NCBI GenBank assembly: GCA_037951105.1
Contig: JBAMJV010001865.1
Location: 1 to 64,000, forward strand
DNA from: Echinarachnius parma
Lineage: Eukaryota > Echinodermata > Echinoidea > Clypeasteroida > Echinarachniidae
Length of the DNA stretch: 64,000 nucleotides
Direction of reading: 5' to 3'
Under the pieces are notes generated by a model. It saw only the letters and a program-made list of their open reading frames with translations, was not told the DNA's origin and ran no database searches. Shown in pieces: positions 12,209 to 54,614 of the stretch (position 1 is its first letter; each line of letters begins with the position of its first letter). Made by a program: the position numbers and the translations under genes.

Positions 12209-12296
12209 ATGATCAAAATGGCGCGATATTTTCGCGTTTCATCGATAGTGCTCGTCTTATCAGTGTATTTCTGCTCTGCGTCTGGTTCTTCGGGTG
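12209..12296 (+). CDS. Receptor gene 1, exon 1 (signal peptide)
   Basis: Two in-frame ATGs (12209 and 12218) precede a hydrophobic run ending YFCSASGSSG, a typical secretory signal. The donor is G|GTGAGTG, leaving phase 1, the same as exon 1 of gene 2. Which ATG is used cannot be decided; the second gives MARYFRVSSIVLVLSVYF. Confidence 0.85.
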
Positions 12297-51900: not shown

Positions 51901-54614
51901 GATTTTAGCTTTTAAAATATATTACTTATATTTCAATTGACATTGACATTGATTTGGCCGATTCATTTTACCCGTTTTTTATATATTTTTATAAGCATGA
52001 ATTTTAGTGGGGGCACTTGCCCCAAGGCCCCCATCCTCGTAGCTACGCCCCTCCCGTTGATTACCGATATTGTAATGCTGTTGTTTTTTGCCTCAAACAA
52101 TTTCAGAAAAATATATTCTCTGTGTTTTCCTTCTCCACAATGACCACATTTAGCACGAATTCGGACTACCTGACGATGTCCAGTCGCCGCGTTTTCGTGA
52201 CGTCGGACGGCGAGATAACGTGGTTGTCGCCAATCATCATCACCAACATGTGCGAGCTCGACGTTTTCCTCTTCCCGTTCGACCGCCAGAACTGCAGCAT
52301 CGCCCTCGGTTCGTTCTCCTCCACCAGCAACATCATCGACGTCGACTACTTCTTCGAACGCAACGTGACGAGCAGCGAGCGTTTCCATGCCAACGGCGTC
52401 TGGAGGGTCGTAGGCGACTCAGCTGCCAAGGTATAATGAAAGTGATGATGACTATGAAGACAATAAGAGCTATATTAATTATGATGATGTTGTTGTTGAT
52501 GATGACGATGATGATAATGATGATAAGGATAATGACGACGATGACGATGTGAAAGTACTTGAATATGATGATGATGAGGAGGAGGAGGAGGAGGAGGGGA
52601 ATAATGATGATGATGAAGATGACGATGATGATGATGAGGATCTTAAAGTTGACGATAATGATGACGATGATGATCTTAAATTTGACGATGAGGATGATGA
52701 TGATGATGATGATGATGATGATGATGATATGAAAGTTGACGATGATGATGATCATGATGACACGGACGACGATGTCGACGATGACGATGGCGATGACGAT
52801 TATGAAGATGAAGATGATGAAGATGGAGATGATGATAACAATGATGATTGATGATGATGATGATGATGATGATTAACATGATTATGTTAAAGTTGATGAT
52901 GATGATGATGATGATGATGATGATGATGATGATGATAATGACGATGTACATATTAAAGTTGTTGATGATGACGATGCTGATGACAATGTAAAATGGTAAT
53001 ACGATGCTATGATTATAGTAGTCATGACTATTTGATAACACTATACAGTATAGCGCCATGATTTTGGGGCCCTTTTTTAAATCTCAAACTAAATAAAGTG
53101 CGTCATTATGTATGATGATAGCACTTTTTAAATGTCCGTCTGTATATTCGCGCTGATATTGTTTCTGTCCTACTGTCACAGGTGTTGCTGTTGTACAGCT
53201 CGTCCGTGTACCCGTTCGCCGAGGTCCACTACCACATCATCTTCGAGCGCATGTCCCGCGTCTACGTCCTCTCCATCATCTTCCCCTCCATCCTCCTCTC
53301 GCTCTCCACCCTCCTCATCTTTGTCCTCCCGCCCGAGTCCGGGGAGAAGATCTCTCTCGGCATCACCAACCTCCTCGCCATGGTCGTGTTTCAGGAGGTC
53401 GTCTTCAGCGCGATGCCGCCTTCTGGATCGCCCGCTCTAGGTAATGAGTAGCTTCAGGAATACATGATTTAAAGGGAGAAGGTCATTTAACATGCTTAAA
53501 GGCTGGGGATCAGGAAGTTTAGATAATCCAGAAAGAAGATCTCTATTGGCACCAACATCCAGCTCGCCATGCATAGTCGTGCTTCAGTAACTCACCTTAA
53601 GCCACAAGCGGCCTTCTGGATCGCCTGCTATATGTTTTTTTTTTTTTTATAGGAATGACAAATCAATACTACTTAAACATGTTAACTGGAAAGAATTATA
53701 CTTAAAGGGTGATTGTCGCCAAATGTGTAGGTCCAAACTCGATTTCGCTGGGCATCTCCTGCGAGAGTATTCACTTTTATTTCGTTCACTCTTTATTGAT
53801 TGCGAAGTTGTAGATGAACCGATTCGAGTAAGAATTGACACGACGGACCGGAATAGTCGTGAAGTCATGAAGTCATGGTATAGGCCTCTTTATAAAAGTA
53901 CATTCTGTATTTCTCTCCTTTTTTACTAACTGATTCATCATATTATCTCATTTTCCACCCTATGCAGCCAATAACATCTGTGTGATGGTCGTCATATCGT
54001 GCCTGGCCATATTCTTCGAGACGGTGGCCCAACGCATGTACTGCTACGGGGACAATAAGAAGGTTCCGAGATGGCTGGCCCGGCTCCTCATCAGAGATTC
54101 GCGGAAAACTCCTTCTAGACATCGAGGCTTTGTAGCGCTCCCAAGTTCGAGCTCGATGATGACGTCAAAAGAAGAGGGCGCCACGACCATCGAGCTGTGC
54201 AAATTCGACCAGGATGGTGATGCTGGCTACGGGAGCAACGGACGCACGGATCTCGATGCCGCCGACAAAGAAGAGGGTCTGGAACTGATGGTGGACAACG
54301 TTGAAACAAAGAGAGACGACGCACCCGCGTCACAGCTGAGCTCGAGGTCATTAGAACGTCTTCCGGCGAATAATGGCGAGGTACTTCCGGGTCATCACCA
54401 GGTCCGGTATCGGGGAGAACCGATGTCTTCCCCGATCCGTGACGTCATCCCTATTTCGCGCAAAAACGATGAAGGAGGAAACGCGGAAATCTGGAAGAAG
54501 ATATCGATCGCGTTTGAAAAGAAGGCTGCGATCTTTCTCCTCTTCTTTATCGCCGTGAGCGTGGTCGCCACGATGCTAGAGATGGCATTCTTATTCAAAA
54601 GTCATGGGTATTAA
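42867..54614 (+). CDS. Nicotinic acetylcholine receptor-like subunit (gene 2), frameshifted in exon 2
   Basis: Coding exons 42867-42945, 45736-45895, 47322-47366, 50884-50993, 52154-52430, 53182-53440 and 53968-54614 match gene 1 exon for exon, with the same phases; total coding length is 1577 nt, one base short of a whole frame. Relative to gene 1, exon 2 has GG instead of GGG at 45810-45811, which puts a TGA at 45831-45833. All other exons are open with good splice sites. The encoded subunit has the same altered ligand pocket as gene 1 (SSS in loop C, Phe at the loop B Trp, Ser at the loop D Trp), cation-type GEK before M2, and a different cytoplasmic loop. The missing base could be a sequencing or assembly error, a null allele, or a young pseudogene. 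The conserved rest favours error or a recent event. Confidence 0.85.
43411..44515 (+). mobile_element. Dispersed repeat family A, copy 7, split by a foldback
   Basis: The start ATTAAAGGGATAGTTGAGTATTGGTCAAAC and the remainder from CTTTAGTAACCAAAACCTGC (about 44036) to CTACGGTACCTTTAA are separated by the insertion at 43446-44030. In intron 1 of gene 2. Confidence 0.8.
43446..44030. mobile_element. Foldback element inserted into family A
   Basis: Ends AGGGTGACTAAATTACAAA and TTTGTAATTTAGTCACCCT are exact complements, and the arms stay paired for about 235 bp (for example CACATATCTTTTGACTATTTGATGTACATTTT). The outside bases are GTAA on the left and TTAA on the right, consistent with insertion at TTAA with one mutation. 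Confidence 0.85.
45114..45611. mobile_element. TIR element carrying a tRNA-like sequence, copy 2
   Basis: Same CACTGTTAAAACGCTGTG termini as copy 1 at 27965, with TA immediately outside both ends (45112-45113 and 45612-45613). It shares the CAACAACTGTTGTT-rich left half and the tRNA-like unit. In intron 1 of gene 2. Confidence 0.85.
45325..45402 (-). tRNA. tRNA-like sequence in TIR element, copy 2
   Basis: Minus strand: A box TAGCGCAGTGGTAGCGTG and B box GGTTCGATTCC are both near consensus, the TTATAA loop is kept, and TTTT follows the 3' end. Stem pairing is better than in copy 1 (GTGTT with AACAC) but the loop would be eight bases. Function as a tRNA is doubtful; it may serve as a pol III promoter. 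Confidence 0.4.
45736..45895 (+). CDS. Receptor gene 2, exon 2 (contains the frameshift)
   Basis: 160 nt against 161 in gene 1. Acceptor TCTAG|TG and donor TTC|GTAAGT are intact. After the codons for KLYEDRLMNY the frame shifts at GG (45810-45811) and reaches TGA at 45831. Confidence 0.88.
46325..46865. mobile_element. Repeat family C, inverted pair in intron 2 of gene 2
   Basis: 46325-46600 and 46671-46865 are inverted copies sharing TGGTTCCGTACGCGCC, GGGCAAAGAACAACAC and GATATCAAATAGAT with complements, forming a large hairpin with a loop of about 70 bp. The right copy is at the same intron position as 15107-15350 of gene 1. Confidence 0.75.
47322..47366 (+). CDS. Receptor gene 2, exon 3 (45 nt)
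   Basis: Encodes the same 15 residues as in gene 1 with several silent changes (AAC GAG CCC versus AAT GAA CCA), a sign of selection on the protein. Confidence 0.9.
47367..48555. other. Intron 3 of gene 2, left part
   Basis: AT-rich with an approximate 320-bp internal duplication: TGACCTCTCCGTATGG...CACACTATGCCCGTTCATAAATGATTCAATATTTAACAACT near 47530-47610 and AAGGGCATATACCATGCCCGGCCGTTTACAAATAATTCAATATTTAACAACT near 47865-47925. A poly-C-bearing element with GGCGTACCGGGGC and GACCACGCAACGCCACC edges lies at about 48110-48312. Confidence 0.45.
48556..48858 (-). mobile_element. Repeat family D, copy 3 (reverse)
   Basis: GGTCCTCGCCTCTAATTTGATGCCCGAAAG at the left, repeated TTTTGCCCGAATATGA units, then GGCCGTTTTCAAAACTCCAGGGGGCTGCAGCCCCCAG, poly-C and CCCTACGCCTATGCG. 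Confidence 0.75.
49360..50760. repeat. CAACGTTGG minisatellite with 569-bp dimeric period (intron 3 of gene 2)
   Basis: The landmark GTTGGCAAATAACAATGTACC(A)TCGT recurs at about 49443, 49735, 50011, 50305 and 50579: spacings 292, 276, 294 and 274, so alternating units make a repeat of about 569 bp. Units are dense in CCAACGTTGG palindromes and have GTTGGTTGGTTGG/GCCCAGGTAGCAAGCC inverted junctions. The many open frames on both strands reflect the period, not a gene. Confidence 0.9.
50884..50993 (+). CDS. Receptor gene 2, exon 4 (110 nt)
   Basis: IWTDEYLSWNESEYGGVTFF...IWYPDITLLTA; acceptor CTCAG|ATT, donor AGC|GTAAGT. Differs from gene 1 mainly in the VTFFEA/LSLFEV stretch. Confidence 0.92.
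51268..51470. mobile_element. Short element with poly-G and poly-C ends (intron 4 of gene 2)
   Basis: GTGGTGTTGCTATGGGG (then a G run to 51301) at the left, AGCACGTGCCTCCCCTCCAATAATAG, and a C run (51419-51430) with GACCACGGAATGCCACT at the right. Resembles 48110-48312, which has GGGGGCACGTGCCCCC and AGTCCGACCGACCACGCAACGCCACC. Confidence 0.55.
52154..52430 (+). CDS. Receptor gene 2, exon 5 (Cys-loop exon)
   Basis: 277 nt, acceptor ATTTAG|C, donor AAG|GTATAA (weaker than gene 1). Cys-loop CELDVFLFPFDRQNC is identical to gene 1. Neighbouring changes: TSNIIDVDYF for TSNLIDVDFF. Confidence 0.92.
52443..52990 (+). repeat. (GAT)n-rich tract in intron 5 of gene 2
   Basis: Over 500 bp dominated by GATGAT with GAC, GAG and AAT variants. 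The Asp/Glu-rich frame at 52549-52851 and the Ile-rich antisense frames are translations of the repeat. Confidence 0.95.
53182..53440 (+). CDS. Receptor gene 2, exon 6 (loop C, M1, M2)
   Basis: 259 nt, acceptor TCACAG|GTG, donor CTAG|GTAATG. Loop C is LYSSSVYPFAE. M1 and M2 are almost identical to gene 1, including GEKISLGITNLLAMVVFQE. Confidence 0.93.
53968..54614 (+). CDS. Receptor gene 2, exon 7 (M3, cytoplasmic loop, M4)
   Basis: M3 NNICVMVVISCLAIFFETVA is the same as gene 1. The loop is largely different except DAGYGSNxR and EGGNAEIWKKISIAFEK at the MA helix. M4 is followed by FLFKSHGY and TAA. Confidence 0.92.

Follow-up and report, generated by a model that had tools for sequence, protein, structure and literature searches.

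The window analysed here is a 64,000-nucleotide stretch of the genome of the echinoderm Echinarachnius parma (assembly GCA_037951105.1, contig JBAMJV010001865.1, positions 1 to 64,000 of the forward strand). It carries two nicotinic-like Cys-loop receptor genes, termed A and B, which are described together with a third gene, C, located elsewhere in the same genome. On the sequences compared, A, B and C form a genuine clade, both conserved and derived, with a remodelled ligand pocket. The explanation that we favour, with slightly less than an even chance of being right, is that the three encode working channels whose re-tuned pocket would answer a ligand other than acetylcholine. The receptor type is otherwise known; new here are the presence of the same changes in gene C, the derived state of the box loss as judged by the canonical relative L042, and the conservation of the pocket between A and C.

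Two nicotinic-like receptor genes

Gene A comprises seven exons on the + strand (12209-22037) and reads through 527 codons free of stops, encoding a nicotinic-like Cys-loop subunit of the GEK type. Its product matches the Pfam families Neur_chan_LBD (PF02931; 9e-42, 143.4 bits, cut-off 26) and Neur_chan_memb (PF02932; 2.8e-11, 44.6 bits, cut-off 28.1). The closest solved structures found by phmmer are alpha7 receptors (human alpha7, E 1.5e-49; top match in the Protein Data Bank (PDB), 7koo). The motifs of the cation-selective nicotinic/5-HT3 branch are present, GEKISLG before M2 and WYPDV or WYPDI in loop A; in the accessible text of PMC4795631 and PMC4006026 the branch rule is GEK or GER before M2 and WxPD followed by Ile or Val in loop A. 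The channels of A, B and C are predicted by motif to be cation-selective.

Gene B follows the same seven-exon plan on the + strand (42867-54614), and the introns of both genes are GT-AG throughout. The initial annotation had reported the Cys-loop, WxPD, M1-M4 and GEK in both genes, and the Pfam domains, the GEKISLG and WYPD motifs and the intron borders agree with it. It had also described 12209..54614 as tandem genes. Two genes in the same direction are indeed present, but they are separate, about 20.8 kb apart, and a frame break in gene B had gone unreported.

Human alpha7 (7koo) shares with gene A the Cys-loop, WxPD and a GEK-type M2. It differs in its full aromatic box and vicinal cysteines and in M2, where A keeps the 9' Leu and GEK but has 16' Glu and 20' Ser in place of Leu and Glu. 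In the profile alignment the M2-M3 loop of A has a two-residue gap relative to alpha7, and its loop F region is 4 residues longer. Because the M2-M3 loop looked short, a micro-exon was sought there; none convincing was found, the gene C intron being scanned in part. Four extracellular N-glycosylation sequons are common to A, B and C, one of them (NVT) in the loop F region.

Ligand-pocket residues

Aligned with human alpha7 by phmmer profile, gene A shows W55S, Y93L, W149F, C190S, C191S and Y195F, with Y188 kept. Genes B and C carry the same residues (S55, L93, F149, Y188, Ser-Ser and F195). The replacements previously read by eye from a gap-free alignment are therefore confirmed by the profile alignment. 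As regards the features of nicotinic alpha subunits, the vicinal cysteines are absent from all three products and the aromatic box reads S, L, F, Y, F. Outright aromatic loss is limited to loops D and A, two of the five positions, F149, Y188 and F195 being still aromatic. Judged by residue type, the aromatic box is reduced, not empty. The earlier statement that the acetylcholine box had been lost thus holds for the loop D and loop A aromatics and for the vicinal cysteines, and fails for the three remaining aromatic positions. Loop C keeps the length seen in alpha subunits, with Y188 and F195.

At alpha7 position 57, which we take to be equivalent to that of a loop D Arg of inhibitory receptors, A, B and C all have Lys; this was tried as a clue to an amino-acid-type pocket and rejected, since Lys or Arg also occurs in 9 of 12 other loop D exons. 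That Arg is described as ligand-binding in the accessible text of PMC4006026 and PMC4338433.

Gene C and the distribution of the changes

Searches were confined to the host's own genome of 1.2 billion bases. An exon 5 search gave 41 matches; besides A and B it identified one close gene, C (62-63% identity in exon 5), the next best match being at 35%. Gene C lies on two allelic-looking contigs, C12119 and C8295, and has exons 5 and 6 fused. It is approximately 73% identical to the other two; over 299 shared codons A and B agree at 266, whereas C agrees with A at 218 and with B at 218. Its exon 1 was not found in the 3,170 bases scanned upstream. A partial, stop-bearing copy of exon 5 is situated just upstream of the intact exon (L025:1906-1992, corresponding to C12119:11906-11992), and the C8295 version of this copy (L027:701-787) is slightly different.

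The residue counts for loops A, D and B are samples from 150 scored matches, not the full set. The loop A Tyr is present in 14/14 other distinct exon-4 stretches, taken from 10-kb loci (of 17 rows other than gene C, one duplicate entry and two haplotype copies were discounted). For L039, L042 and L043 the match stops just short of this residue, which was read by extending it. Of the 12 loop D exons found, 11 have W55 and one has Phe, in a scan that scored an aromatic residue or Arg at 55 as one of eight features and is hence biased towards Trp.

At loop B position 149 the 41 distinct Cys-loop motifs comprise 30 with Trp, 6 with Pro, 2 with Phe and one each with Cys, Asp and Ile. In this comparison by motif, CELDVFLFPFDRQNC stands for genes A and B and CVLDVVLFPFDRQNC for gene C; Phe occurs only in these two motifs and, with A and B counted once, represents three genes. 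The Cys belongs to L045, whose near-copy L048 has Trp; L072 gave no match. Loss of W149 as a property unique to A, B and C was considered and rejected: in a first sample of high-scoring matches every covered position was Trp, but not in the wider sample.

A second, deeper receptor family (L064-L071, on contigs C8053, C1178, C12253, C12444, C5400 and C6979) has GER before M2, and the stretches read contain no vicinal cysteines. In place of the loop B Trp, Pro is found in six of its eight members and Asp in one; L069 has Trp. Two members each lie on C1178 and C12253, and open frames of 259-335 amino acids suggest few introns.

Ancestry

A tree including Cys-loop receptors of the same genome had been proposed in the initial annotation. 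In trees of the exon 5-6 region the clade A+B+C has support of 100/98 (30 rows) and 100/100 (28 rows, L044 and L046 omitted), and it groups with L042, plus L044 and L046 where included, at 97/94 in both trees. The trees leave out L043, a haplotype copy, and loci whose matches were short. L042 is a canonical alpha-type relative with the whole box (W55, Y93, W149, Y188, the cysteine pair and Y195). L044 and L046 (contigs C2986 and C9029) keep W149, lack the vicinal cysteines, have Gly at the loop C tip and form a long branch. The 30-row tree places them nearer to A, B and C than L042 (92/79), a join flagged as two long branches meeting; they are a possible intermediate step. Because the box of L042 is full and L044 and L046 keep W149, the W149 change and, by L042, the W55 and Y93 changes are derived in A, B and C and fall on their long stem. 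The loss of the vicinal cysteines falls on this stem or at the fork before it. Torpedo beta and delta cluster with L029 and not with A, B and C, which thus fall outside the muscle non-alpha group as sampled, with gamma and epsilon left out.

Selection and pocket conservation

Genes A and B encode identical residues at 86 of 90 positions of M1-M3 and at 143 of 167 positions of the ligand domain from exon 3 on. The ratio of nonsynonymous to synonymous substitution rates (dN/dS) between them is 0.12 in M1-M3, 0.25 in the ligand domain and 0.83 in the cytoplasmic loop; between A and C, dN is 0.185 and dS 0.937, a ratio of ~0.2. These values uphold the earlier view that the two paralogues have the changes in common while the channel part is highly conserved.

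A pocket set of 13 positions, picked from alpha7 contacts, is identical between A and C at 12/13, compared with 117/180 in the rest of the ligand-binding domain (one-sided P 0.035; 120/187, or 64%, in another alignment). Muscle beta of Torpedo and mammals, at similar divergence, retains 4/12 pocket positions and 126/207 of the rest, and the pocket counts of the A-C and muscle beta pairs differ with a Fisher P of 0.0036. Over exons 5-6, the 13 rows of the type with vicinal cysteines (CC type) have higher identity in the pocket than in the rest in 78/78 pairs. The comparison was repeated without the two Cys columns, because these rows had been selected for those cysteines, and the pocket still exceeded the rest in 60/78 pairs. 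The pairs formed by Torpedo beta, Torpedo delta and L029 are reversed (2/9 vs 56/108, 3/9 vs 44/96 and 2/10 vs 47/98 for pocket and rest); without the Cys columns their pocket values become 2/7, 3/7 and 2/8. By this measure, and with small numbers, A, B and C look like binding subunits.

Proposed mechanism and alternative explanations

The sequences place A, B and C in a small clade of subunits of nicotinic-like pentameric channels in an echinoderm, standing beside the ordinary alpha-type L042. W55, Y93, W149 and Y195 were replaced on the clade stem with the channel part (GEK and the 9' Leu) retained, and the altered pocket then remained almost constant through the split between A/B and C. In the scheme that we propose, the subunit interface may still bind, at the classical site, a ligand that requires neither the five-aromatic cage nor the vicinal disulfide. 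Either a smaller or neutral compound might serve, or a primary amine that F149, Y188 and F195 would hold, and the cation channel would open on binding. A broader and more tentative proposal, which we hold with slightly less confidence, is that echinoderms independently converted a nicotinic receptor to a non-cholinergic signal channel, a parallel within deuterostomes to the chemotactile receptors of cephalopods but with the pocket fixed. A fixed, conserved pocket would perhaps suit a receptor for one internal transmitter and not for varied environmental chemicals.

The new ligand suggested by the initial annotation is favoured by the A-C pocket conservation, but a structural role had not been weighed there, and muscle beta and delta show the same losses. 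A, B and C could instead be accessory subunits that join canonical subunits in mixed pentamers, contributing no ligand site and modulating conductance, trafficking or sensitivity in the manner of muscle beta and neuronal beta3 and alpha5. Muscle beta and delta (6uwz) resemble A, B and C in the replacement of W149, Y93 and the vicinal cysteines. In beta, W149 is Tyr, Y93 is Met (Torpedo) or Leu (mammal), W55 is Phe (Torpedo) or Tyr (mammal) and the vicinal cysteines are absent; in delta, W55 is kept, Y93 is Gln and W149 is Leu. Twelve CC-type rows in the genome provide possible partners, and beta3 is regarded as accessory in the accessible text of PMC9319688. Loop B is, however, intact in beta3 according to that text, and loss of W149 is thus no requirement of an accessory role. 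The former pocket positions drift in muscle beta and do not drift from A to C, and the muscle subunits form a separate clade with a different loop C, whereas A, B and C keep the alpha-length loop with Y188 and F195 and lie outside the group of Torpedo beta, Torpedo delta and L029. A structural role is accordingly ranked behind the re-tuned pocket, as a possible but less probable explanation.

Several observations weigh against the re-tuned pocket. Box loss is usual in muscle beta and delta, which lack a principal site, and the residue pattern alone is therefore no sign of a new ligand. The loss of W55 and Y93 removes box residues on both faces, as in muscle beta. Genes A and B lack extra pocket conservation (11/13 against 162/187 in the rest), as might be expected of structural subunits. 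The L029-Torpedo beta pair is nearly level without the Cys columns (3/7 vs 44/96), and the three non-alpha pairs share members. Three pairs within L064-L067, with no function assigned, also have more identity in the pocket than in the rest (6/8 vs 39/91, 5/8 vs 35/90 and 7/8 vs 70/92). The pocket test itself is weak: it covers 13 positions in a small number of sequences, with orthologues for a single structural subunit, its pairs share ancestry, and P 0.035 alone carries little weight. In the oyster, 33 of 132 nicotinic genes are of alpha type and a full principal site is present in 13 of these 33, by the accessible text of Jiao et al. 2019 (PMC6896357), from which it follows that principal-site loss is common in invertebrates.

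That acetylcholine, choline or a similar amine still gates the channel through another set of residues, with F149, F195 and Y188 as a partial cage, is considered improbable. Three box positions do remain aromatic in A, nematode acetylcholine-gated chloride channels are described as binding acetylcholine by a "unique structural solution" (PMC4795631, in part), and the loop B position is Tyr or Phe in γ-aminobutyric acid (GABA) and glycine receptors (PMC4006026, in part). The last source also describes agonist recognition in homomeric alpha7 as absolutely dependent on the loop B Trp, and in A, B and C the loop A and loop D aromatics are both gone.

Decay would make the genes pseudogenes in progress and the residue changes noise of relaxed constraint. 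Exon 2 of gene B speaks for it: the exon is one base shorter than in gene A, the break site reading GG in B, GGG in A and GGA in C, and gene B as assembled meets a stop after 58 codons, a further point against a working channel in its case; exons 3-7 on their own are open. When gene C is used as the outgroup, 10 amino-acid changes fall on the A branch and 10 on the B branch, with 13 unplaced. Gene B is thus not faster-evolving, and the break is therefore either recent (a pseudogene) or an assembly error. Simple decay was rejected on the open frame of gene A and on gene C, in which the changes recur, and the dN/dS values indicate purifying selection; we regard it as very improbable. The initial annotation had likewise preferred a conserved channel to decay, a view that agrees with these results and with the pocket conservation between A and C, though not between A and B.

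Relation to known receptors

The re-tuned pocket can be set beside two nicotinic-like receptor types from other lineages. Alpo4 of the annelid Alvinella resembles A, B and C in being nicotinic-like and without the vicinal disulfide. In the accessible text of PMC10338036 it is an orphan, isolated in its tree, with no sign of acetylcholine binding or gating, and it retains F103, W159, Y199, Y205 and W65; more of the box is lost in A, B and C. Cephalopod chemotactile receptors are described as cation channels of nicotinic origin that do not bind acetylcholine (PMC11526382, in part). Compared by description, diversifying selection is ascribed to their pocket sites, whereas the pocket is conserved from A to C, and these receptors belong to the cephalopod lineage, A, B and C being from an echinoderm. 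The mitochondrial COX1 of the host, on contig C14600, agrees with this: translated with table 9 (echinoderm and flatworm code) it scores 930 bits against the best solved COX1, compared with 914 bits under table 5 (invertebrate code), and the protein resembles that of a sea urchin. The chemosensory parallel drawn in the initial annotation is one by analogy only.

Among echinoderms, at least 12 nicotinic subunit genes are given for Strongylocentrotus in the accessible part of an echinoderm muscle review (PMC10603993), and expressed sea urchin subunits carry vertebrate names in that of a 2025 paper (PMC12467107). No account of subunits like A, B and C was found in the literature covered, some of it available in part and most subscription journals falling outside it. 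If the re-tuned pocket binds a ligand, the clade would show cleanly, beside a canonical relative from the same genome, how a nicotinic receptor switches ligand with the channel kept, and may point to a fast transmitter new to echinoderms. If the subunits are structural, their box loss would be separate from that of the muscle subunits.

Gene structures and neighbouring sequence

The exons of both genes are listed in Table 1. The plan of a 45-bp and a 110-bp exon (exons 3 and 4) is that of vertebrate nicotinic genes, and a 45-bp loop D exon is also present for 12 of the 14 other exon-4 stretches of the genome.

Table 1 Exons of the two receptor genes in the window.
Feature	Position	Strand	Content
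Gene A exon 1	12209..12296	+	Signal-peptide-like start, ATG at 12209 or 12218; phase-1 donor GTGAGT common to both candidate ATGs; resembles gene B exon 1; frame reads through
Gene A exon 2	14892..15052	+	Start of ligand-binding domain; 161 bases
Gene A exon 3	16332..16376	+	45 bp; loop D, Ser for W55
Gene A exon 4	18071..18180	+	110 bp; WYPD and loop A, Leu for Y93
Gene A exon 5	19190..19466	+	Loop E, Cys-loop, loop B (Phe for W149), loop F region with NVT sequon
Gene A exon 6	20560..20818	+	Loop C (YSSSEYPF), M1, M2 with GEK
Gene A exon 7	21394..22037	+	M3, cytoplasmic loop, M4, stop
Gene B exon 1	42867..42945	+	Signal-peptide-like start, phase-1 donor GTGAGT; sole candidate of the scan
Gene B exon 2	45736..45895	+	160 bases, one fewer than gene A (161); frame break
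Gene B exon 3	47322..47366	+	Loop D, Ser at 55
Gene B exon 4	50884..50993	+	WYPD and loop A, Leu at 93
Gene B exon 5	52154..52430	+	Cys-loop and loop B, Phe at 149
Gene B exon 6	53182..53440	+	Loop C (YSSSVYPF), M1, M2
Gene B exon 7	53968..54614	+	M3, cytoplasmic loop, M4, stop

In each gene, exon 5 is followed by a long low-complexity stretch (19467-19859 and 52431-52870) that could hamper assembly there. Between genes A and B, on the - strand at 38182-40334, frame pieces resemble by eye a retroelement of the reverse-transcriptase type.

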